Under the pieces are notes generated by a model. That model saw nothing but the letters and a program-made list of their open reading frames with translations. It had not been told where the DNA came from and did no database searches. 41,647 nt of DNA, from the NCBI GenBank assembly GCA_016879935.1, contig JAACJQ010000009.1:1-41647 (forward strand). Direction: 5' to 3'. The DNA is from Archangiaceae bacterium (GTDB lineage Bacteria > Myxococcota > Myxococcia > Myxococcales > Myxococcaceae). A program made the translations under genes and the position numbers. Below are positions 4,065-39,943 of this stretch, in pieces; within the stretch, counting starts at the first letter, position 1; each line of letters opens with the position of its first letter.

Positions 4065-4068
4065 GGCT

Positions 4069-9558: not shown

Positions 9559-11313
9559 TCAGTCGACGTTGTCCCACCGGAAGGCTTCGCGATCGAGCGC
9601 GTCGTCGGCGAGCGACTTGATGAACTCGTCGTCGTTGTCGTCGATCTTCGCGATGTTCGCGCGCACGCGGTCGCGCGCCTGACCGGTGAAGACCTCGAGA
9701 ATCTCGATCTCCTTCGTCACCGCGGCGGCGCCCTTCTCCTGCAACGCCGTCGACACGCGCGACATCGTCGAGGCCAGCATGAAGAGGTCGATCATGATGT
9801 CGGCCATGCGGCGGCTGGCGAACTGCTTGCCGATGATGTTCTTGCCGTGTTTGCGGAGCACGCGATCGACCGCGCCAGCGAGCTCGCGCGTCAGCTCTTC
9901 GAAGACGAGCTGGTTCTTCTCGAGCGCGGCGTGCAGCTTGGTGAACTTCGTCTTCTCGCGCTTGACCGACGTGGTGGCGAGCGAGGCGCGGCGGTGTGCG
10001 TACTCCGAGAGCACGCCGAAGCCCTTGATGGGGTTGTTGAAGATGCCCTTGAGCGAGTCGGCGAGCTCCTTCAGCTCGGAGCCGACCTCGTTCATCGCCG
10101 TCAACGCGATGAAGAGCCGCAAGATGTCGTTGGTGCCCTCGTAGATGCGGTTGATGCGTGCGTCGCGCAAGATTCGTTCGTAGGGGAACTCGCGCATGAA
10201 GCCGTTGCCGGCGGCGATCTGCAGCGCCTCGTCGGCCGTGCGCCACAAGGCCTCGGTGCCGAACACCTTCGTGATGGCCGCCTCGACGGCGTACTCCTGG
10301 CTGCCGGAGTCGATGATGGCGTTCACCATGTTCACCGCCGACTCGGTCACGTAGCAGTCGACGACCATCTGGCCGATCTTCTGCTTCACGAGGCCGAACT
10401 CGGCGATGGGCTTGCCGAACTGCACGCGGTCTTTCGCCTGCTTCGTCGCGAGCGAAATGAGCTTCTTCATGCCGCCCACGGTGCCGCCGCCCAGACCCGT
10501 GCGGCCCGAGTTGAGAATCTTCATCGCGACCTTGAAGCCCTTGCCGGCCTCACCGAGCACGTTCGACGCAGGCACGCGTACGTTGTCGAAGTGCACCGTG
10601 GTGGTCGACGACGCGCGAATGCCCATCTTGTCTTCGTGCGGCCCGATGGTGACGCCCGGCATGTCGCGCGTGACGATGAACGCCGTCATGTTGCCGCGGT
10701 CGGCCTGGCCACCGGTCTTCGCGAACACGGTGAAGAACTGCGCGATGCCGCCATTGGTGATCCACAGCTTGTTGCCGTTGAGCACCCACTCGTCGCCTTC
10801 CTTCACGGCGGTGGTCTTGATGCTGGCCGCGTCACTGCCGGCGCCGGGCTCGGTGAGACAGAACGCGGCGATCATCTCGCCGGTCGAGAGCTTCGGCATG
10901 AACCTGGCCTTCTGCTCGTCGGTGCCGAACAGCAAGAGGCCGCGCATGCCGATGGAGGAGTGCGCGCCGACCGTCACGGCCACGCTGCCGTCGTAACGGG
11001 CGAGCTCCTGCAGCGTGCGTGAGTACGCGGTGGCCGACAACGCCATGCCGCCGTGCACTTCGGGAATCACGAGCGAGAACAGGCCGAACTGCCGCAGCTC
11101 TTCGATGAACTCGACGGGGAACTCGCCCTTCTCGTCCCACTTTCGAAAGTCCTTCTCGTGCGGCTTGAGCAGCTGCTCGATGGAGGAGCGGATGGCCTTG
11201 AAGGTCTCCTGCTCGGTGGGCTTCATCTTCGGGTAGGGGAGGATGAGCTCCTCCTCGATGGTTCCGAAGCAGAGCTGGCTGATGAACGAGGGAGACGAGG
11301 CGTTCGCGGGCAT
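9559..11313 (-). CDS. Acyl-CoA dehydrogenase, VLCAD/ACAD9-like with C-terminal extension
   Basis: A 584-residue flavoenzyme. The usual acyl-CoA dehydrogenase signatures are present: 'CLTEPGAGSDAAS' at about 152-164, 'NGNKLWITNGG' at about 179-189, and 'RINRIYEGTNDILRL' with the putative catalytic base Glu392 in YEGTN. About 185 residues follow the catalytic core, the extended form seen in very-long-chain and ACAD9-type enzymes. Those form membrane-associated homodimers instead of tetramers. It would introduce the first double bond in beta-oxidation of long-chain acyl-CoA, feeding electrons to ETF. The ATG start is the only one upstream of the conserved N-terminal helix. Confidence 0.93.
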   Translation of the reverse strand: MPANASSPSFISQLCFGTIEEELILPYPKMKPTEQETFKAIRSSIEQLLKPHEKDFRKWDEKGEFPVEFIEELRQFGLFSLVIPEVHGGMALSATAYSRTLQELARYDGSVAVTVGAHSSIGMRGLLLFGTDEQKARFMPKLSTGEMIAAFCLTEPGAGSDAASIKTTAVKEGDEWVLNGNKLWITNGGIAQFFTVFAKTGGQADRGNMTAFIVTRDMPGVTIGPHEDKMGIRASSTTTVHFDNVRVPASNVLGEAGKGFKVAMKILNSGRTGLGGGTVGGMKKLISLATKQAKDRVQFGKPIAEFGLVKQKIGQMVVDCYVTESAVNMVNAIIDSGSQEYAVEAAITKVFGTEALWRTADEALQIAAGNGFMREFPYERILRDARINRIYEGTNDILRLFIALTAMNEVGSELKELADSLKGIFNNPIKGFGVLSEYAHRRASLATTSVKREKTKFTKLHAALEKNQLVFEELTRELAGAVDRVLRKHGKNIIGKQFASRRMADIMIDLFMLASTMSRVSTALQEKGAAAVTKEIEILEVFTGQARDRVRANIAKIDDNDDEFIKSLADDALDREAFRWDNVD

Positions 11314-11379
11314 GGCCGGGTTGTAACGCCGACCCGTCTGCGCTTCACGCGAGTTGAATCGGCGCCTTCGTCAGAACGC

Positions 11380-11985
11380 TCAGAAGGCCCGATGGAGCGG
11401 CTCGAGGGTGTAGCGCGAGTACTGGCCGTCGATGGTCTGCTGGTGGCCGTTCGTTCGAATGACCGCGCGCTCGGCAGCCGTGCAGCAGCCCGAACCGACG
11501 CCGAAGAAGAAGTCGTGTCTTCCCGCGCCGAGGACGACCTCGAACGGGCCGGCGCAGGGCACGGTGAAGCGCGCGCTCGCATCGATGGAGACGGAGCGGT
11601 GCTCGCACGCCCGCGCCGATTCGACCGTCACCCGGTAACGCCAGGCTTCGTTGCTGAAGTCGACCGCGAGTTCGGGTGCTTCGGTCGAGAGCTGGAGCCG
11701 AAGCTCGGAGGTCGGCCCCGCGAAGCTGACGCCCTCTTCGTCGACGGCGACCAGGTCGCGCAGCGTCGTCGGCGTGTCGAACTGCAAGACCACCCCATCG
11801 CGGCCGTCGGCGTGACAGGGCACGGTCTGGCTCACGCCGTCGCGAACGAACGAGACCTGCGAGATGCCGGCGGTTGCGCAGCTTTGACCGTTGAACGTCC
11901 AGAGCAGGGTGAACTGAAAGGTCGAGGGTGGAGCGCCACAGCCGACGGCGAGAACCGCGAGTGCGAGCAGGCGATGGTTGAACAT
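11380..11985 (-). CDS. Hypothetical lipoprotein
   Basis: About 201 residues when started at ATG 11985. That start places a signal peptide first ('MFNHRLLALAVLAVGC') with the acylated Cys at 16. A longer frame extends to 12063, but its extra 26 residues are Arg-rich and would bury the signal peptide. The mature protein is mostly beta-strand-like, with paired cysteines (CHADG, CEHRS, CAGPF, GCC) that suggest disulphides outside the cytoplasm. No family was recognised. It is monocistronic, between the acyl-CoA dehydrogenase and the kinase/transposase scar. Confidence 0.65.
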   Translation of the reverse strand: MFNHRLLALAVLAVGCGAPPSTFQFTLLWTFNGQSCATAGISQVSFVRDGVSQTVPCHADGRDGVVLQFDTPTTLRDLVAVDEEGVSFAGPTSELRLQLSTEAPELAVDFSNEAWRYRVTVESARACEHRSVSIDASARFTVPCAGPFEVVLGAGRHDFFFGVGSGCCTAAERAVIRTNGHQQTIDGQYSRYTLEPLHRAF

Positions 11986-12084
11986 GGCGTGCCGCCCGAA
12001 GCACGACGCGGGCCAGCGTCTGCGTCGAGGGTCGGTCGTACCGCTGTGGGTTCCACGCGACATTCGTCGGGTGTGGCCTGCAGT

Positions 12085-12825
12085 TCACGCAGGGGACTCC
12101 CAGACAGAGACGTCGAAGCCGCGCGCCGCCGAGAGCCGCACGAAGAACAGCTCGTCGAAGCCCTCGGCGATGGCAGGCAGCTCGAGTTCGGCAGAGCGCC
12201 AGAGCACTGCCACGTCTGGCACCGGCCGGCCTCTCCCTTCATTTCTCACGAGCGCGTCACGCACCCTCGACTCGAAGAAGAAGCCGCGAACGCGGAAGCC
12301 AGCGGCGCGAGCGGGGCCGATGAAGCGCAAGCGTTCGGTGCGGGTGACGTTGGTGTTGTCGACGACGAGCGCGGCGGAGGTCGAGAGACAAGCCTCGAAG
12401 AGCACGCGCTCGCGGTGGTGCGTCTTCAGCATGTTGCGATTGAGGCGAACGTGGGTTCCGAAGAACTGGTCTCTGGCGAAGGTCGACTTGCCAGTGGCGG
12501 GAATGCCGATGAGCAGAACGAGCTCCGCCGCCCACTTGATGATGGCCGTGGCGACGAACTCGGGCCCGTTGTCGCTGCGCAGGTGCCGAGGCGCGCCATG
12601 GACGCTGACCAGCTTCGAGAGGACTTCGACGACGCGCGCCGACCGAATGCTGCCGGCGACGTCGATGGCGAGACACTCGCGGGTCCACTCGTCGACGACG
12701 GCGAGGCACTTGAGTTGCTGGCCGTTGGCGCAGGCGTCGAAGACGAAGTCGAGCGCCCAGACGTGCGTCCGGACGCAGGCGTCGGTCGAGGCCTCCTCCG
12801 AGGGAGCTGAAGCCCTCCTGACCAA
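12085..12825 (-). CDS. P-loop kinase fused in frame to an IS3-family transposase fragment
   Basis: One open frame of 246 codons with two unrelated halves. Residues about 22-100 match an IS3-family OrfB integrase core: 'WALDFVFDACANGQQLKCL' with the first catalytic Asp at 26, 'TRECLAIDV', and 'SDNGPEF' with the second Asp at 85. The third catalytic residue (Glu) is absent. From residue 102 the chain is a small P-loop kinase: Walker A 'GIPATGKST' at 107-115, 'DTNVT-like' VVDNTNVTR, and a lid rich in Arg. It is the ATP-binding family resembling the T4 polynucleotide kinase domain, complete to its C-terminus. No ATG, GTG or TTG lies in frame between the TTG at 12825 and the P-loop, so the kinase has lost its own start. 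It is either expressed as a chimera or dead. Confidence 0.6.
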   Translation of the reverse strand: MVRRASAPSEEASTDACVRTHVWALDFVFDACANGQQLKCLAVVDEWTRECLAIDVAGSIRSARVVEVLSKLVSVHGAPRHLRSDNGPEFVATAIIKWAAELVLLIGIPATGKSTFARDQFFGTHVRLNRNMLKTHHRERVLFEACLSTSAALVVDNTNVTRTERLRFIGPARAAGFRVRGFFFESRVRDALVRNEGRGRPVPDVAVLWRSAELELPAIAEGFDELFFVRLSAARGFDVSVWESPA

Positions 12826-25925: not shown

Positions 25926-26975
25926 ATGCCGCTTGCGTTCAAACCCCCGCTCGAACCCATGCTCGCGAAGGCGAACGACGAGATCCCCGAAGGGGCAGGG
26001 TGGCGTTACGAGCCCAAGTGGGACGGGTTTCGCGCCATCGTCTTTCGTGACGGCGACTCGGTCGAGCTCTCGAGCCGTGGAGGCCGGCCGCTCGCGCGCT
26101 ACTTCCCCGAGCTGCTCACCGCGCTGAAACAGGCCCTGCCGCCGCGCTGCATTCTCGACGGAGAGATCATTCTGCCGGGGCCGAAGGGCCTCGACTTCGA
26201 GGCGCTCCAGTCGCGGCTGCACCCCGCCGCGTCACGCGTGAACAAGCTCGCCGTCGAGATTCCCACCAGCTTCGTCGCGTTCGACCTGCTCGGCCTCGGT
26301 GACGAGGACTGGCGTGAGAAGCCGTCCGCCGAACGTCGCGAAGGGCTCGAGAAGCACCTGCCGTCGAACACGCGCGTCTTCGTCACGCCGCAGACGCGAG
26401 ATCCCCGTCAGGCGAAGCAGTGGTTCGTCGACTTCGAGGGCGCGGGCTGCGACGGCGTCATCGCCCGAAGGGAAGAGCTGCCGTACCGGCCGGGTGAGCG
26501 CGTCATGGTGAAGGTGAAGCACGGCAGAACGGCTGACTGTGTCGTCGGCGGTTACCGCGAAGGCAAGACGCCGGGCACCGTGGGCTCGCTGCTGCTGTTC
26601 CTCTACGACGCCGAAGGCGTCTTTCATCACGTCGGGCACACCTCGAGCTTCACCGCGAAAGAGAAGAAGGCGCTGGTCGAGAAGCTCAAACCCTACGTCG
26701 TCGAGGGGCAGGCGCCGGCGCCGGAAGGCAGAACCCCCGACGCGCCCAGCCGGTGGGACCCGAAGGCCGAGAAGACGTGGGTGACGTTGCGGCCCGAGCT
26801 GGTGTGTGAGGTTCGCTACGATTTCCTGCAAGGCGCGCGGTTTCGTCACGCGACGACCTTTCAACGCTGGCGTGAAGACAGAACACCGAAGTCCTGCAAT
26901 TACTCACAGCTCGAACCGCCCAATCCCTTCTCGTTGGACACGCTGGTCGCGCTGGCCCAGAAGAAACCGGAGTGA
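25926..26975 (+). CDS. ATP-dependent DNA ligase (LigC/LigD-ligase type)
   Basis: A 349-residue stand-alone ligase. The adenylation lysine is Lys31 in 'YEPKWDGFRA' (motif I KxDG). Motif III-IV elements are 'CILDGEIILPG' and 'FVAFDLLGL', and motif V is 'MVKVKHGRTADCVVGGY'. The OB-fold domain follows with 'GSLLLFLYD' and ends near 'FRHATTFQRWREDRTPKSC'. It seals nicks with ATP. Bacterial relatives work in non-homologous end joining or base-excision repair, but no Ku, polymerase or nuclease module is present here. NFACT starts three bases after its stop, so the pair is one operon. Confidence 0.92.
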   Translation: MPLAFKPPLEPMLAKANDEIPEGAGWRYEPKWDGFRAIVFRDGDSVELSSRGGRPLARYFPELLTALKQALPPRCILDGEIILPGPKGLDFEALQSRLHPAASRVNKLAVEIPTSFVAFDLLGLGDEDWREKPSAERREGLEKHLPSNTRVFVTPQTRDPRQAKQWFVDFEGAGCDGVIARREELPYRPGERVMVKVKHGRTADCVVGGYREGKTPGTVGSLLLFLYDAEGVFHHVGHTSSFTAKEKKALVEKLKPYVVEGQAPAPEGRTPDAPSRWDPKAEKTWVTLRPELVCEVRYDFLQGARFRHATTFQRWREDRTPKSCNYSQLEPPNPFSLDTLVALAQKKPE

Positions 26976-26978: not shown

Positions 26979-28385
26979 GTGTCGCTGCGCCCCATCGAAG
27001 CCACGCTGCTGGCGAAGGAACTCGAGCGTGACCTCGCGGGAGCGGTCGTGCAGCAGGTCTCGAGCCCGACGCCGACGCGCGCGTACGTGGAATTTCGCAT
27101 TCCCGGTCGCAGTGTGACGGTGCTCGTGTGTTGTGATGTGAAAAGCAGCCGTATTTCGGTGGTCGAGAAGCGGCCGTCGAACCCGCCCGAGCCGCCGGCG
27201 TGGCAGAGCGTGCTCCGTCGTGAACTCATCGGTGCGCGGCTGGTCGACGTCGAGAGCGTCGAGTCGCGGCGGGTGGTGCTGGTGCATCTGAAGGCCGACC
27301 GCGATGGCACCGAGCACGCGCGAACGTTGCTGCTCGAGTACGCCGATTCGCCCGGCATCGCGCTCACCACGAGAGAGGGCAGGGTGCTGGCGATCTCCCA
27401 CCCGTTCCGAGCGGGCTTTCGCCCGGGCTCGACGTGGACGCCGCCTCCCGACGGGCCCGTGAAGGAATCGGTGAGCCGCCTGCAGAGCGACTTCGTGCAC
27501 CTGCGACTCGCGCATGGCGCGGAGTTGCTGTTCGGCAGCCAGGAGGCCGATCGCTGGCTCAAGGCCCGGCTCGCACCCATCGAAGCGAAGCTCAAGAAGC
27601 TCGAGCGCACGCGTGAAAAGGTTCGCGCCGAGACGAACCGCAAGGCCCAGGCAGAATTGTACAAGCAGGAGGGAGAGCTGCTTGCACAGAACCTCCATCG
27701 CCTCACGCGTGGTGCGAAACAGGTCACCTTGCCTGAGTACAGAGCTGACGGTGAGATCGTCGAGCGCTCCATCACGCTCGACCCTTCACGTGCGCCGAAG
27801 CAGGAGGTCGACTGGCGGTTTCATCAGTACAAACGAATTCTGCGCGGCATGGAGTTCGCCTCGAAGCGCCTCGCCCAGCTCGACGACGAACAGCGCCGCC
27901 TGGAGCTCGAGCTCGCGAAGGCGAAGAGCGCTCCCGTCGAAGCGCCCGTCACGAAGAAGGCCACCAACCAGCAGGACGTGGCGATGGCCCCGTACAAGGA
28001 ATACCGCGGGCACGGCGAGCACCCGATCTGGGTCGGCCGGGGCTCGGCGCACAACGACGAGCTCACCTTCAAGGTCGCGCGGCCCTGGCACGTCTGGTTT
28101 CACGTTCGCGGCTCGCCCGGAGCCCACGTCGTCGTTCCCCTTCGCAAGGACGTCTCGCTGCCGCCCGAGGTGCTGCTCGACGCCGCCCACCTGGCGCTCC
28201 ACCACTCCGACCTCAAGGGCGAGCCCCGCGGCGAGGTGAGCTACGTGCCAGTGAAGCGCGTGCGAAAGGGAAAAGACGCTCCGCCCGGTGCAGTGACGTT
28301 CACCGGCGAGAAGACCCTCATGCTGCGCATGGAGCCCGCGCGCCTCGAGCGCCTGCTCGCCACCGAGCGCCTCGAGCCGCGCTGA
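26979..28385 (+). CDS. rqcH: NFACT-family ribosome quality control protein (RqcH-like)
   Basis: A 468-residue protein from GTG 26979. It has a shortened NFACT-N domain (residues about 5-175). A coiled-coil arm follows (about 180-320, 'AKLKKLERTREKVRAETNRKAQAEL' and a Lys/Glu-rich second helix). The NFACT-R domain is at about 340-440 ('HPIWVGRGSAHNDELTFKVARPWHVWFHVRG'). In RqcH this architecture binds stalled 50S-peptidyl-tRNA and adds C-terminal alanine tails. The residues I align by eye with the DR motif of NFACT-N read 'SRRVV', so the acidic member appears replaced by Arg. It is shorter than the roughly 570-residue B. subtilis protein. It may be a binder lacking full tailing activity (inference). 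Confidence 0.85.
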   Translation: MSLRPIEATLLAKELERDLAGAVVQQVSSPTPTRAYVEFRIPGRSVTVLVCCDVKSSRISVVEKRPSNPPEPPAWQSVLRRELIGARLVDVESVESRRVVLVHLKADRDGTEHARTLLLEYADSPGIALTTREGRVLAISHPFRAGFRPGSTWTPPPDGPVKESVSRLQSDFVHLRLAHGAELLFGSQEADRWLKARLAPIEAKLKKLERTREKVRAETNRKAQAELYKQEGELLAQNLHRLTRGAKQVTLPEYRADGEIVERSITLDPSRAPKQEVDWRFHQYKRILRGMEFASKRLAQLDDEQRRLELELAKAKSAPVEAPVTKKATNQQDVAMAPYKEYRGHGEHPIWVGRGSAHNDELTFKVARPWHVWFHVRGSPGAHVVVPLRKDVSLPPEVLLDAAHLALHHSDLKGEPRGEVSYVPVKRVRKGKDAPPGAVTFTGEKTLMLRMEPARLERLLATERLEPR

Positions 28386-28387: not shown

Positions 28388-28666
28388 TCAGTCGTCGTCG
28401 CGACGCCGGCCCAGCCAGAAGCCCAGCGCCAGGCCCGCCAGCCCTGCCGCGCAGACGAGCACCGGAAGAACCTTCGGCAGCGCGTCCTGCTCCGCTGCGC
28501 GGGCCCGCAGCCGCTCGAGCTCGTTCGTCGTACGCAGCACCTCTTCGGGCGCCAACCATGCGCCGCCCTGCACCTCGAGCGAGTCTCCGTCGTAGGTGCG
28601 CACGGTCGCCGACGCGACCTCGACCATGTTCTCGAACACCGAAATGCCCGCCGTGGAGTCGGCCAT
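28388..28666 (-). CDS. Small C-terminally anchored membrane protein
   Basis: A 92-residue protein started at ATG 28666 because a strong Shine-Dalgarno (GGGGAG, minus strand) lies just upstream. The frame extends to 28768 without one. Residues about 1-35 are a strand-rich head. A short helix ('TTNELERLRARAAEQDALP') follows at about 40-60, and one membrane span ('VLPVLVCAAGLAGLALGFWLG') is near residues 66-86, ending in basic and acidic residues. The topology is probably a soluble N-terminal head in the cytoplasm with a C-terminal anchor. No family was recognised. Its stop faces the NFACT stop across two bases. Confidence 0.65.
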   Translation of the reverse strand: MADSTAGISVFENMVEVASATVRTYDGDSLEVQGGAWLAPEEVLRTTNELERLRARAAEQDALPKVLPVLVCAAGLAGLALGFWLGRRRDDD

Positions 28667-28984
28667 GCGCTCTCCCCTAACGCCGTTCGTGCCCCGATGA
28701 CACACCCCGGCACACCGCCCAGATTGATCCACGTTTGACACGTGTGCTAGGCCGCCGCGGCTTTCCATACCTGTGCCTACGACATTCAGGGGTGCCGATT
28801 TGTTGTCGAATTGCCGACTTCAGCTGACCCGATCGCTAACGGCTGGCCGCCTCACTGCCAGACCCGACGCAGGGCAGCGGGGTGCAATCGAGGCAAAAGT
28901 CCCTGTTTTCACTCGCGAAACGAATCACCGGTGCCTGGGTACGGAAGTTGCCCCCAGCCCCGCCCGCAACACCCGGAGGTCTGC
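28667..28984 (+). promoter_or_regulatory. Gene-free leader upstream of the barrel/metzincin operon
   Basis: A 318-base stretch with no convincing gene on either strand. It holds a perfect -35 hexamer TTGACA (28735-28740) overlapped by the palindrome ACACGTGT (28738-28745), but no matching -10 box at normal spacing was found. GGAGG at 28975-28979, five bases before the GTG at 28985, is the ribosome binding site of the barrel gene. The rest shows no obvious riboswitch or terminator. Confidence 0.4.
28671..28678 (-). promoter_or_regulatory. Ribosome binding site that decides the start at 28666
   Basis: The minus strand reads AGGGGAGAG just before the ATG. The longer upstream frame has no such site, so translation most likely starts at 28666. 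Confidence 0.6.
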
Positions 28985-30196
28985 GTGAAGCGTCTTCTCT
29001 CAGCCGTGCTCACCGCTGTGATCGTGCCCGCCATCGCGCTGGCCGACGCTGCTCCAACCGCCGCCCAGCCTGAGAATTCCGAGCAGGCCCAGCAGACGAC
29101 GACCACCACCACGACCACCACCACCGAGTCGAAGGACGAGAAGAAGGACGACAAGGCGGCGAAGGATCCCAAGGCTGCGGCCGCGGCTCAGCAGCAGAAC
29201 GCCCTCGCCAACGCCGTTCAGGCCCGTACGCCTGAAGAGCAGGCGAAGCAGTCGGGCTTTCAGTTCGCGTTCGGCCTCGACCACTACATCGGCACCGGAA
29301 CCTTCATCAACCCGCAGTACTACGCGTCGCTCACCGCGGCGCCCAGCCTCTCGGCCACGTACCTGTTCCACCCGGGTGGCGTGACGCTCGCCGCCTCGGG
29401 CCGTGTCATCGCCTATTACGAGTACACGCTGCCTGACACGCCGAACGGCCGTCGCTTCTTCCCCCAGGACATTCGTCTCGGTCTCGTCGCTCCGTCGATT
29501 CTCCGCGACAAGGCCGTCACCGGCATCGGCTTCACCCCGTCGGTCGGTCTCACGATTCCCGCGACGCAGGAGTCGTTCACGGCCGGCATGATCACCACCG
29601 TCTCGCTCGGCGCTGCGGTCACGCGCTCGTTCAACGCCGGCCCCATCGGCTCGTTCGACCTTCGCGTCACGGGCGGTGCGTCGAAGGGCGTCTACACCTC
29701 GCCCGTCAATGGCATTCGCAAGCCCAACGCCTCTGCGACCACGCGTGATGCGCTCGGCACCGCGGTGCTCGTCTGCCGCGACAGCGATGTCTTCTGCGTG
29801 TCGAACGGCGCGAACCCCAACTTCGCCCTCTCGCTCGGCGGCAACGTCAACTGGCGCATCACGGGCAACCTGATCGCGTTCGGTGGCTACACGTACTCGC
29901 ACACCTTCCGCGAGCAGCTCGCGGCCGTCGGTGACCCCACCATTCCGCAGGCGCTCGACAGCAACGGCAACCCGGTCGCACAGGGCGGGCTCGGCGAGGC
30001 CGACGTGACGCGCACGTTCCTGGGCCTCTCGTACCAGCTCAACGAGCACTACAACCTCGACTTCTACATGTACACCGAGCAGACCCCCCTCGTTCGCAAG
30101 GACGCGGTGTGGGCGGTTCGTTTCCCCCTCGGCTCCTTCGATAACGCCGCCTCCAACAACACCAGCGTCGTCGTCTCGCTGGGCGCGGCCTACTGA
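28985..30196 (+). CDS. Predicted outer-membrane beta-barrel protein with Thr-rich N-terminal linker
   Basis: About 403 residues from GTG 28985, preceded by GGAGG. A signal peptide ('MKRLLSAVLTAVIVPAIALA') is followed by a low-complexity linker containing ten consecutive threonines and Lys/Asp/Ala-rich sequence. From residue about 95, amphipathic alternating strands dominate ('GFQFAFGLDHYIG', 'LSATYLFHPGGVTLAASG', 'NFALSLGGNVNWRITGNLIAFGGY', 'YNLDFYMYTEQTP'). They end in 'TSVVVSLGAAY'; a terminal aromatic residue is typical of barrels recognised by BamA. No named family was recognised. It heads the transcription unit that includes the two giant metzincins, 62 bases before the first. It may be their export channel, anchor or partner (inference). 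Confidence 0.7.
   Translation: MKRLLSAVLTAVIVPAIALADAAPTAAQPENSEQAQQTTTTTTTTTTESKDEKKDDKAAKDPKAAAAAQQQNALANAVQARTPEEQAKQSGFQFAFGLDHYIGTGTFINPQYYASLTAAPSLSATYLFHPGGVTLAASGRVIAYYEYTLPDTPNGRRFFPQDIRLGLVAPSILRDKAVTGIGFTPSVGLTIPATQESFTAGMITTVSLGAAVTRSFNAGPIGSFDLRVTGGASKGVYTSPVNGIRKPNASATTRDALGTAVLVCRDSDVFCVSNGANPNFALSLGGNVNWRITGNLIAFGGYTYSHTFREQLAAVGDPTIPQALDSNGNPVAQGGLGEADVTRTFLGLSYQLNEHYNLDFYMYTEQTPLVRKDAVWAVRFPLGSFDNAASNNTSVVVSLGAAY
29096..29125 (+). repeat. Ten-codon threonine tract
   Basis: Codons ACG and ACC alternate irregularly over ten positions in the linker after the barrel gene's signal peptide. Mixed codons argue against simple slippage and for selection on the protein sequence, perhaps as a flexible or O-modified spacer (inference). 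Confidence 0.8.
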
Positions 30197-30206
30197 GATC
30201 ACCCAT

Positions 30207-30243
30207 GTCGAACTCTTCAACCCTGTCGAACCAGAAGTCGAAC
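30207..30243 (+). repeat. Three direct copies of GTCGAAC before the first metzincin
   Basis: The heptamer GTCGAAC occurs at 30207-30213, 30225-30231 and 30237-30243, with repeat periods of 18 and 12 bases, in the 62-base gap between barrel stop and metzincin start. It could be a regulatory or processing site, but may be chance in this composition. Confidence 0.35.
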
Positions 30244-30258
30244 CGTCACGGAGGCATC

Positions 30259-33200
30259 ATGAATCAGCAGTCACCCTGGGCTCGAAGGCTGGCCGCGGCC
30301 GCCCTCGCGCTGTTTGCCGCTGCCTGCGCACAGAGCAACGGCGACGTGAACCGCGTGCAGCCGAACGTCATGCGGAAGAGCGACCTCCTCGATGGCGAGT
30401 GGTACTTCCGCAACTCCGTCACGTACACGCCGCACAACACCCAGTTCACGTACCCCGGTCAGACCGGCGGCATGGAGAAGCTGGTGTTCGAGGTGCAGGA
30501 GAACCACCTCGTCGGCTACCGCTCGTACCCGTACATGCTCGGCATCGAGCCCAACGTCGACAAGACGTCGATCGTCTCGGGCACCACGGCGAAGTACTGC
30601 GACCGTGACGGCAAGTGCACGGGCGGCCAGAAGTACTATGGCGCGCCGGTCGTCGCGTTCCCCATCACCAGCCACTTCGACATTCAGCGTGGCTACAACC
30701 CGGCGACGGGCGAGCAGACCAACGTCATCTCCGAGAACACCTCGGACCGGTACTGGAACCAGCGCGAGTTCATCCGCGTGAACTGGGCCACCAACGTGCT
30801 CAACACGATGTCGGGCATGAACTGGGGCACCGTTCAGAACCCGCTCGGCAGCTCGACGAGCGCCAACTGGATTCAGCCCAACGAGAAGACCGAAGACCCG
30901 CAGGACTGGCCCAGCTTCGAGTACGAGGGCGAGGGCGATGCCCGCAAGCTGAAGTACTTCGACGTGACCGGCCGCTACCTCGCCGTTCCCGACACGACCT
31001 ACTTCGAGGGCTACGGCTCGGTTCCCCTCTGCTACTTCGCCGAAGGCATCTACGACTGCAGCTCGGCCGAGATCAAGATGCGCATCTCGGTGGCGAAGGT
31101 CGACACCAAGAAGGTGCGTGACTACGAGCCGCTCCTCTACCCGAACGACATGATGTCGCTGTTCGGCGTCTTCCGTACCGAGCGCCTGAACTGGGACCGC
31201 AAGTTCGGCACCATCGAGTCGTCGCGCATTCTCATCGGCCAGCGTCACCGCCTCTGGCAGGAGTACTTCCAGAAGGACTCGGCCGGTGTGGCCGACGTGA
31301 CCAAGCCGATCGACGTCGCTCAGCGCAAGGTCAAGCCCATCGTCTACTACTTCTCGCGCGCCGACCGCATGGGTGGCCAGGAGCGCTACGACGAGTTCAT
31401 CGAGCCCGGCCAGCGCATCGCTCGTGACTACGACCGCGCCTTCAAGCGCGCCGTGGCCGCCGTTCGCAACGTCAAGCCCGAGGACGTGAAGGAGCAGGTC
31501 TACTTCCTCTGCGACAACCCGGTGAAGAAGGGCAACCCGAAGGAGTGCGGAGCCGAGGGCTTCTCGCCCAAGTTCGGCGACCTGCGCTACAGCTTCATGA
31601 ACACCGTCGCCGAGCCCGTCGCCAACGGCCTGCTCGGTTACGGCCCCAGCTCGGCCGACCCTGAGACGGGCGAGGTGATGTCCGGTAACTCCAACTCGTA
31701 CCTGTGGGGCGTCGACCTCTACGGCCGCTCCGTCACCGACTGGATTCTGCTGCAGGCCGGCGAGAAGAACCTCACCGAGTACATCTCGGGTCGCGACGTC
31801 GCCAACTTCATCAAGCAGAACCCCGTGTACAACATCGCGAACGTCAACAAGCAGAACGCGACCATTCAGTCCGAGCTCCAGGGCATTCCCCAGCGCAACG
31901 TCGAGACCCAGGGCGCGTTCGAGCGTCCGTCGCCTCGCCTCGCTCGCCTGCTCGGCAACCTGAAGGCCACCGGCGGCATGCCGAAGGCCACGCGCAACGA
32001 GATGCGCGTCGCGGCCGAAGTGCTCAAGCAGCACCCCGACCTCGAGGCCGCCGTCATCGACAACCCTGAGATTGGCGACGACGTCGTCAACCTGCTGCCT
32101 CCGTTCGCTCAGGAGCGCGCCAAGACGGACCCCGCGTTCCGCCGCGACATGGCCCGCATCGCGCTCACCAACTACCAGTCGGTCTACGACTGGAAGAAGA
32201 AGCGCATCGAGTTCTTCTCGAAGAACAACATCTACATGGCCGAGTTCTTCGACCGCACCCTCGCGGGCGTGGCCAACGAGCTGCTCTCGAAGCGTGACGC
32301 GCAGCGCGACGAGATCAAGGCGAAGGGCAACCCGAAGTGCGGCACCCCGACGGCCTGCACCGACGACGAGGCCACTCGCCTCGCGAACGACGGCATCGCC
32401 AAGTACGTGCGCCAGCAGGTGTGGCTGTCGACGTCACTCCACGAGATGGGTCACACGCTGAACCTGCGCCACAACTTCCAGGGCTCGTTCGACGCCGTGA
32501 ACTTCTTCGACGAGTACTGGCCGCTGCGCAAGGCGAGCATCACCGTGCAGCAGAACGGTCAGCCCGTCATTCCCCGCACGCCGAACGATCTCAAGCTGGC
32601 CGCCGAGGGCACCGAGTCGCAGCGCCTCGCGAGCATGCACAACTACGAGTACTCGTCGATCATGGACTACTCGGGCAAGATCTTCACCGACTGGGCGGGC
32701 CTCGGAAAGTACGACGAAGCCGCGATCATCTTCGCGTACACCGCTGTCTCGAAGCCGGGCTCGACGGGCGCCGCCACGACCGACACGTCGTACGTCGAGG
32801 TCTTCAACTCGGCTCGCCGCGACACGATGCAGTTCCGTGGCTCCGATGGTGCGCAGATGAGCATCAGCGGTGCTGCCGTCGACCTGCCGCTGGTGAACGT
32901 CACCCACACCAACCCGAACATTCGCAACTACACCGAGCGGTTCCACTACAGCCTCGCGCCGCTCCACTTCGGTGAAGGCCCGGCGACGAACATCGGAGCC
33001 GTCATCGACAACGGCATCGAGAAGCTGAAGGACCGCAAGCTCGTGAAGTACGAAGAGGTTCGCAAGGACGAGGAGCGCGTGCGCGAGATCCTCAACGGCG
33101 ACCCCTCGCTCGCGAACGATCCTGACCGTGCGAACGGCATGATCGGCACCTCGCTCCTGCGCGTGCCGTACATGTTCTGCTCCGACGAGTCGGCCGACGG

Positions 33201-34617
33201 CCCGGTGCAGTCGTGCTACCGCTTCGACCGCGGCGCCGACTACTACGAGCAGACCCGTACCCACCTCGAGGACTACTGGAACTACTACGTCGACTCGCAC
33301 TTCCGCCGCGACAGCGCGTTCTTCAGCGGCAACGGCGCGATCAACTCGGCGTACGGCACGTTCATCAACGTCGCCAACTCCTACAAGCACTACATGCTGG
33401 AGCTCTACCGCCAGCCTGACCGCAACCAGGAGCAGCGCCTCACCTACCGCATCGACCCCGTCCTCCAGGACCTGTGGACCATCGGCGTCATCGACGGCAT
33501 CAACCAGCACCTCAACGTGATGAGCGTGCCGCCGTTCGGTCTCTTCATGTTCCGCACGCTGCGCACCACCGGCGCCCGCTGGGACGTGATCAGCGAAGGT
33601 GACGACTTCGATGCGCTCACCGCTGCTGGCCGCGCGAAGTACCAGGACCTCTACAGCTCGCGCCTGGGCGCTCAAGACTTCGGCACCATGCCCCGCGGCC
33701 TGGGTCGCCGCATGTACAGCCGCTATGACTTCAAGAGCGGCTTCGGCTTCTTCCAGCGCATGAGCGAGGCCGGTCACTACAACGACCAGGTCGGCGCGAT
33801 GTTCGCCGCAGTCATTCCCCAGATCGACGTGCAGGGCCTCGACACCGACTCCGACCAGAACCGGTTCAACGTGCCCTACTACCTCCTCTTCAAGGACGAG
33901 ATGACCGACACCTTCGGCGCGCTCTGGGGCAACGACGAGCTCAAGGTTCGCCCGACGGCCTTCAAGCGCACCAACGAGCGCGGTGAGATCACCGACGACC
34001 TCGGTCTCTTCTGGCGCGTGTACGTCAACGGCTCCGACATCTTCGCGAACTTCAACTACCCGCCGCAGCAGCCGGGTCGTTGCACGGGCAACAACCGGCC
34101 GCCGACGTGCTTCACGGCCGGCCAGAACCCCGCGCCCGCGAACATTCAGCTCACGTGGACCAGCCGCATCTACTCGCTGTTCCTCGGCATGGCGCTCTTC
34201 CGCACCAACTTCGATCTCGACTACGCGAAGACCAACCAGGTCTACCGCGTCGGTGGCAACGAGCAGTTCACCGTTGCTCCGGGCTACGAGATGGTCGAAG
34301 TGCCCGACGTGACGACTGGCGCCCGCTACGTCGCGGTTCGCCCGGCGTGCGCGGTCGGCCAGACCTGCCCCGACACTGCCGCGACCTCGCTCATCCGCCA
34401 CACGCAGGACATCCTGCTGATGGTTCAGGAGCCCGGCCGCTGCCCGATTCCCGACTACCTCACGGTTCAGGGCTACGGCTGCCTTGCTGCCGAGCAGGCC
34501 AACAACCCCCGCATCATCGAAGACCGCCGCCGTTTCTGGACGGAGATCTTCCGCGATGCCGTTCGTGACCTCGACATGGCCCGCTCGTTCTACGGCGCCT
34601 ACGGAAGGGCGTTCTGA
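30259..34617 (+). CDS. Giant lipoprotein zinc metalloprotease (metzincin), copy 1
   Basis: About 1,452 residues from ATG 30259, chosen for the GGAGG at 30250-30254 and because it begins a classic signal peptide ending FAAAC (acylated Cys23). The +2 residue is Ala, consistent with outer-membrane sorting. The zinc site is 'HEMGHTLNLRH' (His728, Glu729, His732, His738), the metzincin HExxHxxNxxH form. The Met-turn 'SSIMDY' (Met802) follows 64 residues after the third His. About 700 residues precede and 650 follow the site, far longer than most relatives; the family resembles the DUF4953/DUF5117 zinc-dependent proteases (recognised by motif, not searched). It is paired with a tandem paralogue and a barrel protein. 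Proteolysis of external or surface proteins is inferred. Confidence 0.85.
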   Translation: MNQQSPWARRLAAAALALFAAACAQSNGDVNRVQPNVMRKSDLLDGEWYFRNSVTYTPHNTQFTYPGQTGGMEKLVFEVQENHLVGYRSYPYMLGIEPNVDKTSIVSGTTAKYCDRDGKCTGGQKYYGAPVVAFPITSHFDIQRGYNPATGEQTNVISENTSDRYWNQREFIRVNWATNVLNTMSGMNWGTVQNPLGSSTSANWIQPNEKTEDPQDWPSFEYEGEGDARKLKYFDVTGRYLAVPDTTYFEGYGSVPLCYFAEGIYDCSSAEIKMRISVAKVDTKKVRDYEPLLYPNDMMSLFGVFRTERLNWDRKFGTIESSRILIGQRHRLWQEYFQKDSAGVADVTKPIDVAQRKVKPIVYYFSRADRMGGQERYDEFIEPGQRIARDYDRAFKRAVAAVRNVKPEDVKEQVYFLCDNPVKKGNPKECGAEGFSPKFGDLRYSFMNTVAEPVANGLLGYGPSSADPETGEVMSGNSNSYLWGVDLYGRSVTDWILLQAGEKNLTEYISGRDVANFIKQNPVYNIANVNKQNATIQSELQGIPQRNVETQGAFERPSPRLARLLGNLKATGGMPKATRNEMRVAAEVLKQHPDLEAAVIDNPEIGDDVVNLLPPFAQERAKTDPAFRRDMARIALTNYQSVYDWKKKRIEFFSKNNIYMAEFFDRTLAGVANELLSKRDAQRDEIKAKGNPKCGTPTACTDDEATRLANDGIAKYVRQQVWLSTSLHEMGHTLNLRHNFQGSFDAVNFFDEYWPLRKASITVQQNGQPVIPRTPNDLKLAAEGTESQRLASMHNYEYSSIMDYSGKIFTDWAGLGKYDEAAIIFAYTAVSKPGSTGAATTDTSYVEVFNSARRDTMQFRGSDGAQMSISGAAVDLPLVNVTHTNPNIRNYTERFHYSLAPLHFGEGPATNIGAVIDNGIEKLKDRKLVKYEEVRKDEERVREILNGDPSLANDPDRANGMIGTSLLRVPYMFCSDESADGPVQSCYRFDRGADYYEQTRTHLEDYWNYYVDSHFRRDSAFFSGNGAINSAYGTFINVANSYKHYMLELYRQPDRNQEQRLTYRIDPVLQDLWTIGVIDGINQHLNVMSVPPFGLFMFRTLRTTGARWDVISEGDDFDALTAAGRAKYQDLYSSRLGAQDFGTMPRGLGRRMYSRYDFKSGFGFFQRMSEAGHYNDQVGAMFAAVIPQIDVQGLDTDSDQNRFNVPYYLLFKDEMTDTFGALWGNDELKVRPTAFKRTNERGEITDDLGLFWRVYVNGSDIFANFNYPPQQPGRCTGNNRPPTCFTAGQNPAPANIQLTWTSRIYSLFLGMALFRTNFDLDYAKTNQVYRVGGNEQFTVAPGYEMVEVPDVTTGARYVAVRPACAVGQTCPDTAATSLIRHTQDILLMVQEPGRCPIPDYLTVQGYGCLAAEQANNPRIIEDRRRFWTEIFRDAVRDLDMARSFYGAYGRAF

Positions 34618-34640
34618 CCATGACCGCACGGAACTTTTTC

Positions 34641-34644
34641 GGAG
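34641..34644 (+). promoter_or_regulatory. Ribosome binding site that decides the second metzincin start
   Basis: GGAG five bases before the ATG at 34650. The earlier in-frame ATG at 34620 has no such site and would add ten residues before the signal peptide. Confidence 0.55.
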
Positions 34645-34649
34645 AAACC

Positions 34650-37600
34650 ATGAAGCCCTCGTTCCGCACTCTGTTCGCCGCCTGCGCCGCCTTCGTGGCG
34701 GTGGGCTGCTCGCAGCCTGAACTCATCGACCGCACGCAGCCGAACTACGTCAAGAAGACCGACCTGCTCGACGGCCAGTGGTACATCAAGGAGACGATCG
34801 TCGACCTGCCCAAGACTCCGGGCGCGCCTGGCGTCATCGGCTCGGGCGGCAAGCTCGAGAAGATTCGCTGGGAAGTTCAGGAGAACATGCTGGTCGGCTA
34901 CCGCTCGTACGAAGTGGTGCCCGGCGCCGACCCGCGCGTCGACCCCGTGAAGTCGAAGATCGGCGACGTTCGCCTGCGTGATGGCAAGCCCTTCAAGGGC
35001 AACCCCGTCTACGCGTACCCGATCGTGAGCCACTTCGATCGTCAGCGTCAGTACAACGCGGCGACCGGCGAAGTGAGCAACGTGCTGGTCGAAGACACCC
35101 AGGACCGCCCCTGGTACCAGCGCGAGTTCATGCGCGTGGACTGGTCGAGCAACCAGATCCTCAACTACCAGAGCGCGACGGGCCCGTTCGACTTCGCGGC
35201 CGGCATGCTCAAGACCCGCGTCGTCACCGACCAGGATCAGGCCGCCCACAACGAGTCGATGGTCTACGCCTGCACCAACGGCGTGCAGGGCAAGAACTCG
35301 ACGCTCAAGTGCGACGAGGGCGCGAAGCTCTCGTACCTGGACTTCACCACGCAGGCGATCGTCGATCCTCCCGCGGTCGACTACCCGGGCTACGGCCGTC
35401 TGCCGTACTGCCTCTTCAACCCGACCGTCGACTGCGAGAGCTCCAACATGAAGATCCGCACGTCGATCATGAAGGTCGACGAGGCGCGGGTCGATGACTA
35501 CGAGCCGCTGACCTACACCGACAAGATGATGGTGAAGTTCGGCTTCTTCCGGAACGAGCTCTACACCTACAACAAGGATCGCTACTTCACCTACACGGGC
35601 CAGCAGTTCTTCGCGATGCGCCACAACATCTGGCTCAAGTCGAAGGAGCTCGTGAAGGACGGTCAGGGCAAGCAGGTCGTCGACCCCGTCAGCGGCCGCC
35701 CCCAGTACAAGACGATTCCCGTCACGCAGCGTCAGGTGCGCCCGGTCGTCTACTACATGACCGACAACACCCCCCGCGAGCTGTGGGGCGCTGCGGCTCA
35801 GCGTCACGCCGAGAAGGACGGCTTCGAGAAGAAGAACACCATCGAAGCGTCATGGGATCGCGCCTTCCGCAAGGCCGTTGCCGTGCCCCGTGGTCTCGAG
35901 TGGAACGACCCCTCGATGCCGCAGATGTTCTACGTGTGTGAGTCGCCTGTGCAGGAAGGCGCTCCGGCTGCCTGCGGCAAGCCCGGCACCTACGCGCGCA
36001 TCGGCGACCTCCGGTTCCACATGGCTCCGTACGTCGACCAGAACGCTGGCGGTCTGCTCGGCCTCGGCCCCTCCGCGATGGATCCCGAGACGGGCGAAGT
36101 CGTGAACGCCGTTGCCAACGTCTACGGCGCTGGCCTCGACACGTGGGCTGGCTCCTCGGCGCAGCTCGTCGACGTCGTGAACGGAGAGGTCACCCTTTCC
36201 GAGCTCGTCACCGGCAAGGACATCAAGGACTACGTCTTCGCGAACCTGAACGCGACCGACCCGCGCCGTCCGCGCACGGGCCCGTTCACTGCGCAGCAGC
36301 CCCTCATCTCCGACCCGAGCCGTCCCAACGGTTCGTTCTCGAAGCCCACGGGCCGTCTCGCCGACCTGCTCAACACCTGGAAGCAGCAGGGCACGCCCCC
36401 GCTGCTCAAGGGTGACCGCAAGGCCACCGTCGCCCAGCTGCTCAAGGACAACCCGGCCCTCGAAGACACCCTCATCAACCTGCCTGAAGTGCGCGTCGCC
36501 GTTCTCGGCCACATTCCGAACCGCGCCTTCTCACAGCGTCTCGAGAGCGACTCGGCGTTCTACCGTGACGTCGCCCGCAACATCCTGATGGGCGTCGACC
36601 CGGTCGAGCAGGCCCGCACGAAGGCCAAGCGCATGGTCGACCCGACGGTCGGCTGCTTCTACGAGTTCTCGTACTCCGATGAGGACTACATCGGCGTCGC
36701 CAAGCGCAAGCTGGCGCTTCAGAACTCGCTCATCTCGAAGTTCAAGACCCAGGGCAACGCGGGCTGCGCGAACGCTTCGGCCTGCACCGACGCCGAGGCC
36801 AAGAAGCTCGCCAAGGCAGAGGTCTACAACGACCTTCGCCGTGAGGCCTACCGCTCCGTCACCGAGCACGAGATCGGCCACACGCTCGGCCTGATGCACA
36901 ACTTCATCGCCTCGGCCGACGCCATGAACTACCAGGAAGGCTACTGGGACCTGCGCAAGGAGACGATCGGCGTCATCGCCGGTGGTCGTCGCGTGCTGCC
37001 CGTCACGCCGCAGAACATGGCTGACGCTGCGAAGCAGAACGAGAAGCAGCAGGACAGCGCCATGTACGAGTACGAGTACTCGTCGATCATGGACTACGGC
37101 GCGCGCGTCAACTCCCAGAACCGCGGCACCGGCAAGTACGACGACGCGGCGATTCTGTTCGCCTACTCGGGCGGCTTCGAGCCTGGTTGGGTCGAGGTCT
37201 TCAACGAGACCCGCAACGACTACCAGAACACGGCCGTGACGCTCGAGGTCGACAACCTCGCCAAGGTCTTCACGGCGCGCGGTGCGCACGTCGAGATCCC
37301 GCTGGCGATCACCGAGCACTACACGCCGGCGTCGAACCTCTACACCGACAAGTACCACTACTCGACGCTGCCCTTCCATTTCGCCGAGGCCACCGGCTCG
37401 TTCGAAGATCGCCTGAACCAGGGCATCAACCGAATGAAGAACCGCTCATACCGGAAGTGGAGCGAGATGCAGAAGGTGTACGACCGCCTCAACCAGGAGG
37501 TGAAGAACTACGCTCTCAACGCCTCGGGTCTCGGCGAGCGTGACATCGAGCGCAGCCGCACGGTCGTCAACGCGGCCGGCGGCAAGAACGTGCCGGTCGA

Positions 37601-38957
37601 AGTGCCGTACATGTTCTGCTCCGACTACGAAGTCGGCGCGAACCTGCTCTGCAACCGCAACGACCAGGGCGCTGACGTCTACGAGATGACGACGAAGTGG
37701 ATCGAGCGCTTCAACCAGTCGTACGTGTTCTCGAACTTCCGTCGTGACCGGCTCATCTACTCGCCCTCGCAGATCGCGTCGGGCAAGTTCGGCCGCTACC
37801 TCGGCAACGTTCCGAACGTGTACCAGCAGTGGCTCTTCAACATCTATTACATCACCAAGGACTACCAGCTCTCGCCCGAGGAGATTGACGAGCTCTACGG
37901 CCTCGGCGACCCGATCTGGCAGAACTACTGGACGATGGCGGTCGTCGACTCGACGAACCTGCTCATGCAGCAGCTGACGATTCCGTCGGCCGGCTACCAT
38001 GGCAAGCGTCCCGACGGCGTGTGGGAGTACCTGCCCACCGGTGACTCGCTCAACCGCCGCCTCTCGGACGTCGCCGAGGCAGCCCTCAAGGCCGACATCG
38101 CTCGCGCCGACAAGGGTGGCTACACCGACCTCGTGTACGTGCCGCGCGGCCCGGGCCGGTCGATGTTCACGGTGTTCGATTCGTTCGGCTACGACAGCTT
38201 CAGCCGCGTGAACGAAGCCGGTCACTTCTGGGACGTCTACGCCGCGATGCTCGCGCTGATCACGAGCGAGACGAACTTCCTCGGTGTCGACCGTGGCTCC
38301 GACGCGCTCCGCTACTCGCTGCCGTACTACCTCACGTTCAACAAGGAGCTCGCTCCGCTCTTCGGTAACTACTTCACCGAGACGGCCGACTACTACGCGC
38401 CGATGCTCGGCAAGAACGCCGACGGCACCGCGACGATTCAGCTCTCGCCGTTCATCAAGGCCAACGACTACATCTTCGGGTTCAACTACCCCGTCGCGCC
38501 GGTTCAGCAGGTCGACGGCAACGGCAACCCGATGACGATGTCGAAGGTCTACCCGGTGTCGACGTGGAGCGCCCGGTTCTACTCGCAGCTGTTCTCGATG
38601 GCGTACTTCACCCAGAACTACAACCTCGAGTACGCGGAGTTCTCGAAGGTGTATCGCCTGGGCAGCGGTGAGGCCCTCGACCCTGCGGCCGGCTACGAGA
38701 CGGTGCAGTTCGCTGACCCGTTCGGCGGCGGCTACATCTACGCGGCGCTCCGCAAGATTGGTGACCCGAACCCCACGACGGGTGCGGCGATCGTGTCGCG
38801 CGCCGTGGCTCAGAAGGCCAAGTGGGACCAGGCGAAGAACCTGAACCAGCGCGTCGACGGCTTCACGGCCGCCGAGTGGGAAGCGAAGGTTCGTGAGACC
38901 GTGCGCAACATGGAGATCATGCGCGGCCTGTACAACATCTTCGGCCGCGCCCTCTAA
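34650..38957 (+). CDS. Giant lipoprotein zinc metalloprotease (metzincin), copy 2
   Basis: About 1,435 residues from ATG 34650, with signal peptide ending 'FVAVGC' (acylated Cys20). The zinc site 'HEIGHTLGLMH' (His740, Glu741, His744, His750) is the orthodox HExxHxxGxxH metzincin form. The Met-turn SSIMDY has Met814. It is collinear with copy 1 along its whole length: 'LLDGQWYIKET' near the N-terminus, 'VQENMLVGYRSY', 'SHFDRQRQYNAATGE', 'YEPLTYTDKMM' and 'VPYMFCSD' all have matching blocks. Overall the two look like an old tandem duplication. It starts 32 bases after copy 1 and is followed by a strong hairpin, consistent with the last gene of the operon. Confidence 0.85.
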   Translation: MKPSFRTLFAACAAFVAVGCSQPELIDRTQPNYVKKTDLLDGQWYIKETIVDLPKTPGAPGVIGSGGKLEKIRWEVQENMLVGYRSYEVVPGADPRVDPVKSKIGDVRLRDGKPFKGNPVYAYPIVSHFDRQRQYNAATGEVSNVLVEDTQDRPWYQREFMRVDWSSNQILNYQSATGPFDFAAGMLKTRVVTDQDQAAHNESMVYACTNGVQGKNSTLKCDEGAKLSYLDFTTQAIVDPPAVDYPGYGRLPYCLFNPTVDCESSNMKIRTSIMKVDEARVDDYEPLTYTDKMMVKFGFFRNELYTYNKDRYFTYTGQQFFAMRHNIWLKSKELVKDGQGKQVVDPVSGRPQYKTIPVTQRQVRPVVYYMTDNTPRELWGAAAQRHAEKDGFEKKNTIEASWDRAFRKAVAVPRGLEWNDPSMPQMFYVCESPVQEGAPAACGKPGTYARIGDLRFHMAPYVDQNAGGLLGLGPSAMDPETGEVVNAVANVYGAGLDTWAGSSAQLVDVVNGEVTLSELVTGKDIKDYVFANLNATDPRRPRTGPFTAQQPLISDPSRPNGSFSKPTGRLADLLNTWKQQGTPPLLKGDRKATVAQLLKDNPALEDTLINLPEVRVAVLGHIPNRAFSQRLESDSAFYRDVARNILMGVDPVEQARTKAKRMVDPTVGCFYEFSYSDEDYIGVAKRKLALQNSLISKFKTQGNAGCANASACTDAEAKKLAKAEVYNDLRREAYRSVTEHEIGHTLGLMHNFIASADAMNYQEGYWDLRKETIGVIAGGRRVLPVTPQNMADAAKQNEKQQDSAMYEYEYSSIMDYGARVNSQNRGTGKYDDAAILFAYSGGFEPGWVEVFNETRNDYQNTAVTLEVDNLAKVFTARGAHVEIPLAITEHYTPASNLYTDKYHYSTLPFHFAEATGSFEDRLNQGINRMKNRSYRKWSEMQKVYDRLNQEVKNYALNASGLGERDIERSRTVVNAAGGKNVPVEVPYMFCSDYEVGANLLCNRNDQGADVYEMTTKWIERFNQSYVFSNFRRDRLIYSPSQIASGKFGRYLGNVPNVYQQWLFNIYYITKDYQLSPEEIDELYGLGDPIWQNYWTMAVVDSTNLLMQQLTIPSAGYHGKRPDGVWEYLPTGDSLNRRLSDVAEAALKADIARADKGGYTDLVYVPRGPGRSMFTVFDSFGYDSFSRVNEAGHFWDVYAAMLALITSETNFLGVDRGSDALRYSLPYYLTFNKELAPLFGNYFTETADYYAPMLGKNADGTATIQLSPFIKANDYIFGFNYPVAPVQQVDGNGNPMTMSKVYPVSTWSARFYSQLFSMAYFTQNYNLEYAEFSKVYRLGSGEALDPAAGYETVQFADPFGGGYIYAALRKIGDPNPTTGAAIVSRAVAQKAKWDQAKNLNQRVDGFTAAEWEAKVRETVRNMEIMRGLYNIFGRAL

Positions 38958-38980
38958 GGCCTGACCCCGAAGTGATGTGA

Positions 38981-39016
38981 CGACGCCCGGCCCTCGCGAG
39001 AGGTGACCGGGCGTCG
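38981..39016 (+). terminator. Strong hairpin after the metzincin operon
   Basis: A perfect 10-bp stem (38981-38990 with 39007-39016) encloses a second 4-bp stem CCTC/GAGG closed by the GNRA-type tetraloop GCGA (38996-38999). It begins 24 bases after the stop of the second metzincin. There is no clear T-run after it (GCATTT), so it is either a weak intrinsic terminator or a structure that protects the 3' end of the mRNA. Confidence 0.55.
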
Positions 39017-39079: not shown

Positions 39080-39943
39080 GTGCAACTGCCACCGCGGCAG
39101 CTCGACTTGTTCAGGGCACCGGCTGCCAGGCCAGCGGTGTTGCGTGAGGGGCCGGCCGCGTTGGCGCCCACTGCGCCTGCGGCCCCACCCGTGCCTTCCG
39201 AGGCTGCGCCGGTCGAGGTCGCCGAGCCCGCTCCAGAAGCCCGGCCGATTCCCAGTCGTCAGCAGGCCTTGAGCGCGGCTCGAGTGCTCGCCCATCAGGT
39301 CGCGGCGTTGCTCGGGGCCGACGTGAAGGTGCTGCTCTCGGTTCATGACAACCGCAGCACGATGATCAGCTTCCGTCGTGAGCCTCCGTTGCTGAGGCTG
39401 CGCGTGCATCACCTGTTTCTCGAAGCGCCGCCCGAGATCGTGCAGGCCATCGCCGACTACGCGGGCCGGGGCAAACGAGCGGCGGGTCAGGTGCTCGACG
39501 ACTACATCGCCGACAAACAGGGCCGCATCAGGGCCGAGCCTCGCCGCGCCGCCACGCTCAACACACGGGGCAAGTGCTTCGATCTCGCCGACATCTTCGC
39601 GAGGCTGAACACGCTCTATTTCCAGGACACGATTCGCGCCCGCATCGGCTGGGGGCGGCACGCGGCGAAGCGGCGGCGAAAGTCGATTCGGCTCGGCGTG
39701 TACGATCACCGCTCCCGCGAGATTCGGGTGCACCCGGCGCTCGACCGCCCCGACGTGCCGCTCTTCTTCGTCGAGTACATCGTCTTCCACGAGATGCTCC
39801 ACCAGGTGTTCCCCAGCGCGCGCGACTCGGGGCGACACGTGCATCACCCCAAGGCGTTCCGCGACCGGGAGCGTGCGTTCCCCCGCTACCCTGCGGCCAT
39901 CGCGTGGGAGAAGGAACACCTGCACGCGTTGCTGCGCCGCTGA
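39080..39943 (+). CDS. SprT-like zinc metalloprotease domain protein
   Basis: A 287-residue protein from GTG 39080. The first 60 residues are Pro/Ala-rich and disordered. The C-terminal 120 residues carry the SprT-type site 'VFHEMLHQVFPS' (HEMLH at 237-241) and a downstream His-rich 'HVHHPKAF' (about 253-260) that supplies the third ligand in this family, plus 'IRVHPALDRPDVPLFFVEYIVFHEM' just before it. No signal peptide is seen, so the enzyme acts in the cytoplasm. Eukaryotic relatives (SPRTN) digest DNA-protein crosslinks; the role in bacteria is poorly known. It is separate from the metzincins by fold and by the hairpin between them. Confidence 0.8.
   Translation: MQLPPRQLDLFRAPAARPAVLREGPAALAPTAPAAPPVPSEAAPVEVAEPAPEARPIPSRQQALSAARVLAHQVAALLGADVKVLLSVHDNRSTMISFRREPPLLRLRVHHLFLEAPPEIVQAIADYAGRGKRAAGQVLDDYIADKQGRIRAEPRRAATLNTRGKCFDLADIFARLNTLYFQDTIRARIGWGRHAAKRRRKSIRLGVYDHRSREIRVHPALDRPDVPLFFVEYIVFHEMLHQVFPSARDSGRHVHHPKAFRDRERAFPRYPAAIAWEKEHLHALLRR

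Follow-up and report, generated by a model that had tools for sequence, protein, structure and literature searches.

In Pseudomonas, FapF is a polypeptide transporter whose operon co-encodes a protease, FapD, that is needed for export, and the FapF authors suggest that FapD may cleave the periplasmic linker of FapF (PMC5557850). A periplasmic zinc peptidase that acts on a barrel is also known, namely BepA (PMC8423444). Met-zincins (PF16313, DUF4953) usually occur with DUF5117, a common companion N-terminal domain that is not itself part of PF16313, and a literature search on DUF4953, DUF5117 or Met-zincin returned general peptidase papers only. We know of no protease partner of the COG4313 outer-membrane channel. 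No description of a system combining a barrel with a metzincin lipoprotein was found in the literature.

A barrel gene and two genes for lipoprotein Met-zincins, MP1 and MP2, are encoded on one strand of contig JAACJQ010000009.1 (assembly GCA_016879935.1) of an Archangiaceae soil bacterium (Myxococcota; Myxococcaceae). The window, meaning the whole 41,647-nt stretch analyzed (forward strand), contains the following features.

28985..30196, + strand: barrel gene, GTG start at 28985, stop at 30196, 403 aa; GGAGG at 28975-28979
30259..34617, + strand: MP1 lipoprotein Met-zincin, ATG at 30259, 1452 aa; GGAGG at 30250-30254
32431..32490, + strand: MP1 zinc-site region (PF16313 match)
34650..38957, + strand: MP2 lipoprotein Met-zincin, likely ATG at 34650, 1435 aa; GGAG at 34641-34644
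36828..36920, + strand: MP2 zinc-site region (PF16313 match)
38981..39016, + strand: GC-rich hairpin of 36 bases 3' of MP2, candidate end of the unit

As the sequence-only reading had it, an exported, beta-strand-rich protein is followed by two collinear lipoproteins (403-, 1452- and 1435-aa ORFs), with gaps of 62 bases between the barrel gene and MP1 and 32 bases between MP1 and MP2, and a GGAG(G) ribosome binding site before each start. Longer mechanical ORFs open at 30205 for MP1 and at 34620 for MP2; the lipoprotein signals begin at ATG 30259 (MNQQSPWARRLAAAALALFAAAC) and at the likely ATG 34650 (MKPSFRTLFAACAAFVAVGC), respectively. The hairpin thought to close the unit is real (59-base stretch, folding energy −32.4 kcal/mol, z −4.0), but the T-run looked for after it is absent, which sets it apart from a classical intrinsic terminator. 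A consensus promoter/terminator scan of the unit gave no match, such scans being uninformative for myxobacteria. Spacing and synteny support a predicted single barrel-MP1-MP2 transcript, from which two Myxococcaceae loci (L018 and L019) deviate. The dN/dS values of ~0.21 to 0.25 for the proteases and ~0.5 for the barrel indicate purifying selection on all three genes; being conserved as well, the gene set is thus not a product of chance. NCBIfam and Rfam added no label for the module.

Several neighboring genes were recorded. An ATP-dependent DNA ligase gene (25926-26975) adjoins the gene for a 468-aa NFACT-type (RqcH/Tae2-like) protein (26979-28385), and the order of these two next to the module is conserved. 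The minus-strand ORF at 28388-28768 encodes a 126-aa protein of no Pfam family, which probably has a membrane segment at its C-terminal end (GLALGFWLGRRRDDD); a 59% identical copy is found in L020, and in the other fetched loci it does not lie beside the module. Directly after the module, here and in Myxococcaceae loci, comes a gene for a SprT-like metalloprotein (39080-39943; weak Pfam match, E 0.003). Four consecutive same-strand putative long ORFs at 4063-12810 (555, 821, 653 and 585 aa) had no Pfam match at E 1e-4.

Both proteases possess the lipobox, the HExxHxx(N/G)xxH zinc site and the SSIMDY Met-turn that had been read from the sequence. The mature N termini are CAQSNGDVN in MP1 and CSQPELIDR in MP2. 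The motif HExxHxxGxxH is exact in MP2 (HEIGHTLGLMH at residue 740, with SSIMDY at about residue 812), and Asn replaces Gly in MP1 (HEMGHTLNLRH at residue 728, with SSIMDY at about residue 800) and in 8/9 sequences of the MP1 branch. Among 49 long relatives, HExxHxxxxxH is intact in all and the Met-turn S[IV]MDY in 47. PF16313 matches MP1 (E 9.7e-6, 25.4 bits) and MP2 (E 9.8e-8, 32.0 bits) above the cut-off of 24.2 bits, over only 20 to 30 of its 316 positions, as well as all 13 aligned members of the protease family.

For profile comparison with hhalign, canonical DUF5117-DUF4953 proteins were taken from other genomes of the Myxococcota (L144 and L145). Profile positions 251-472 aligned at E 2e-9, and a second block, which starts at the zinc helix, spans the Met-turn and ends with a GxGKYDxAA block, at E 9e-8. 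Residues ~250-487 of the proteases align with the DUF5117/DUF4953 proteins, and since this stretch includes the catalytic domain's upper half, that half lies within the 700 residues that precede the zinc helix. An insert of ~205 residues precedes the zinc helix (DPxTGE to HExxH, ~262 residues versus 56 in canonical members) and one of ~50 residues precedes the Met-turn (HExxH to Met-turn, 72 residues versus 21), while everything C-terminal of about residue 850 (~590 residues) aligned with nothing outside the protease family. The sequence-only reading had called both flanking regions undescribed; this stands for the last ~590 residues, but within the 700-residue flank lie half of the catalytic domain and the 205-residue insert. 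By these alignments, the two inserts and the last ~590 residues are what is new in the proteases, and MP1 and MP2 are larger proteins distantly related to the Met-zincins (DUF4953), with predicted proteolytic activity. A sequence search of solved structures found no relative of the proteases, and a low-confidence model of MP2 residues 280-1435 (pLDDT 54, pTM 0.35) had no Foldseek match at E <0.001.

The exported barrel protein carries an N-terminal tail of ~50 to 70 residues that is disordered and rich in Thr, Ala, Lys and Gln. Its predicted model (pLDDT 66, moderate) shows 12 strands, with a short helix at residues 83-87 ahead of strand 1; the tail, inspected for a helical plug, a coiled coil or a trimer, is of low confidence. 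Orthologs are 33 to 64% identical, and Pfam at E 0.01 assigned no family to any of 14 diverse barrels. With this model, the top Foldseek match was FapF (E 1e-9, TM 0.53 to 0.68 by target length), followed by the COG4313 channel. A second structure aligner gave Z scores of 17 to 18 for FapF and COG4313 and of 16.5 to 16.8 for KdgM and NanC (overall range, 16.5 to 17.9). These four are nearly tied, so the fold leaves undecided what passes through. On the model, assignment as a 12-stranded outer-membrane channel is fairly safe, and the designation “FapF-like” is a lead. A Slam-type Pfam match, looked for in the barrel, was not obtained.

Myxococcaceae-type loci share the conserved order ligase-NFACT-barrel-MP1-MP2-SprT-like-pyruvate kinase, with two exceptions (the barrel is inverted in L018 and absent from L019). 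A profile built only from the window's barrel type found 39 matches in 60 related genomes; counted by hand from coordinates, and subject to contig breaks in many incomplete genomes, 33 of these adjoin a protease-family gene, 2 are cut by contig ends, and 4 stand alone (three from one family, with other neighbors, and one weak). The barrel is thus conserved beside the proteases in other Myxococcota. Three loci of family f6 (L165, L166 and L167) have a barrel homologue and no protease, L165 placing it beside a response-regulator-like ORF; a second use of the barrel is possible there.

At 40 protease loci from other families, a homologous barrel gene is directly upstream in 23 and divergent in one (L118); 16 have no barrel recognized alongside. 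Because upstream ORFs entered the iterated profile in the later rounds of this search, most weight is placed on the first round, in which 18/18 matches were protease neighbors. Of 100 opposite-strand control ORFs, none apart from the divergent one at L118 matched. For the other two module types, the barrel lies no more than 90 bases away in all 17 loci with intact upstream DNA. The tandem protease pair is typical of Myxococcaceae-type loci, and elsewhere one barrel usually accompanies one protease, their order being swapped in G156.

Two further modules, C432 and C270, occur in the source genome, and in both a separate barrel gene lies immediately upstream of the protease. In C270, the third module (L012 4549-5904), the protease match ends after ~450 residues, which indicates a truncated gene or an assembly error. 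C275 (L013 7486-10992) is a lone divergent protease with no barrel recognized upstream, apparently without most of the N-terminal region. Barrel and protease trees of 46 pairs agree (Mantel r 0.79; permutation maximum, 0.17). Part of this agreement is owed to shared species history; the three module types of the source genome form three matching clades in both trees, however, and thus shared history alone is insufficient. The idea that the proteases have a barrel partner of their own, raised from the sequence, gains from both the linkage across the phylum and the agreement of the trees. MP1 sequences form a fully supported monophyletic group and MP2 shares a clade with further sequences from the same family, placing the tandem duplication early within the Myxococcaceae relatives.

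Because the channel-protease pairing is kept repeatedly in related genomes, the two parts probably work jointly at the cell envelope, and we consider it very likely that barrel and protease act together. As to how, we tentatively favor a two-part outer-membrane proteolysis module in which a 12-stranded channel serves as the dedicated partner of a very large, lipid-anchored Met-zincin. Such a module would have been inherited and duplicated jointly in Myxococcota, and with the protease duplicated in the Myxococcaceae relatives, one barrel would serve two proteases. In Myxococcus xanthus lipoproteins, Lys at +2 marks the inner membrane and Ala at +7 the matrix (PMC3222651). The residues after the lipid cysteine of MP1 and MP2 include neither, which makes the outer membrane the default guess under a rule that stems from another genus; the signals are compatible with outer-membrane anchoring of both proteases. 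The barrel would most likely be a conduit or platform through or at which the protease, or a chain that it processes, would cross the membrane, and the disordered periplasmic tail may act as a contact or gate; this specific role is put forward a shade more tentatively than the module itself. More doubtful, if plausible, is the fuller proposal that the dedicated channel exports the giant Met-zincin lipoprotein to the surface or is gated by it, with several specific pairs per genome making up a previously undescribed Myxococcota system. The precedent of FapF, in which a 12-stranded channel has a disordered stretch on the periplasmic side and is encoded together with a protease, favors a dedicated channel or platform and leaves foraging and Fap-like processing as live rivals. 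The near-tie of the structural matches, the moderate confidence of the barrel model and the substantial minority of family proteases with no barrel recognized beside them (16 of the 40 loci above, and C275) weigh against this reading.

In the foraging alternative, outward-facing proteases digest environmental protein and the barrel imports the peptides, as in Sus-like pairs of surface lipoprotein and channel. The small-molecule channels KdgM, NanC and COG4313 score within ~1.5 Z of FapF, a single barrel for two proteases suits a shared uptake pore, and the barrel shows faster evolution than the proteases, a pattern common in exposed loops. However, conserved synteny included no gene recognized as a TonB-dependent receptor, a transporter or another peptidase, and each protease type retains its own divergent barrel type, which is more specific than a general peptide pore requires. 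We regard foraging as unlikely, though it is the best placed of the rivals.

Less probable again is Fap-like processing, in which the barrel would export some other chain, and processing of this chain or of the barrel tail by the anchored proteases would gate export. The best fold match is a transporter whose export requires FapD, the suggested cleavage of the FapF linker has a possible counterpart in the long disordered tail ahead of the modeled strands, and yet the module contains no conserved gene for an exported substrate, its neighbors look housekeeping, and FapD, a C39 cysteine protease, is not related to Met-zincins.

Envelope quality control, in which the proteases would survey misassembled outer-membrane proteins or break them down, with the barrel as substrate or cofactor (compare BepA and LptD), appears very improbable: an outer-membrane lipoprotein anchor by default leaves the active site periplasmic and BepA is a precedent for a zinc peptidase with a barrel target, but a general protease needs no co-inherited private barrel for each paralogous module. 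Equally improbable is that the genes have stayed neighbors by descent and have no joint function, since their adjacency, for all the barrel-free, inverted, divergent and swapped loci listed above, survives great divergence (barrels 13 to 26% identical) and unrelated genomic surroundings, and most rearranged copies remain adjacent.

The protease profile found matches in 79 of 195 genomes and in 60 of the 90 genera searched. Among the large complete genomes listed for the same bacterial family (g3, g5 and g6), probably those of cultured fruiting predators, none had a match to this protease family; several of them carry other, shorter Met-zincins of ~800 residues. The predation role that had been suggested for the proteases is weakened by this distribution, and we rejected it. 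A separate Met-zincin group of ~760 to 830 aa was noted in G113, G116, G117, G133 and others (L147 to L164), genomes of genus g20 carrying as many as 5 strong copies each.

Should the pairing prove functional, an outer-membrane protease system for which we found no published account is widespread in the phylum. It would offer a way to test how very large lipoproteins work at the outer membrane or pass through it, in bacteria where this process is poorly understood, and a proposed role for two protein sets that otherwise have no useful name.

Among known systems, Slam of Neisseria resembles the module in that a barrel gene adjoins a surface-lipoprotein gene, whereas the module's barrel has ~400 residues and no Slam-type Pfam domain (DUF560 barrel, TPR), and its lipoprotein is a protease. 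The COG4313 channel of Pseudomonas putida (4rl8) is likewise 12-stranded (Z 17.6 over 236 residues), although the 14 module barrels checked belong to no Pfam family. With Met-zincins of PF16313, MP1 and MP2 share HExxHxxGxxH-type zinc sites, the SxMDY Met-turn and a strand-helix block upstream of the zinc helix (RPxVYY...AFRxA...GDLRY...DPETGE); they differ in length (~1440 versus ~820 residues) and in context, the source genome having no DUF5117 match and only 1 of 97 genomes of the phylum having one. The Pseudomonas FapF/FapD pair differs in its sequence (FapF is 8 to 14% identical to the barrel), in the class of its protease and in its amyloid substrate, for which no gene was seen at the module, but it too combines a protease gene with a 12-stranded barrel that follows a disordered periplasmic segment, and it provides the top structural match.
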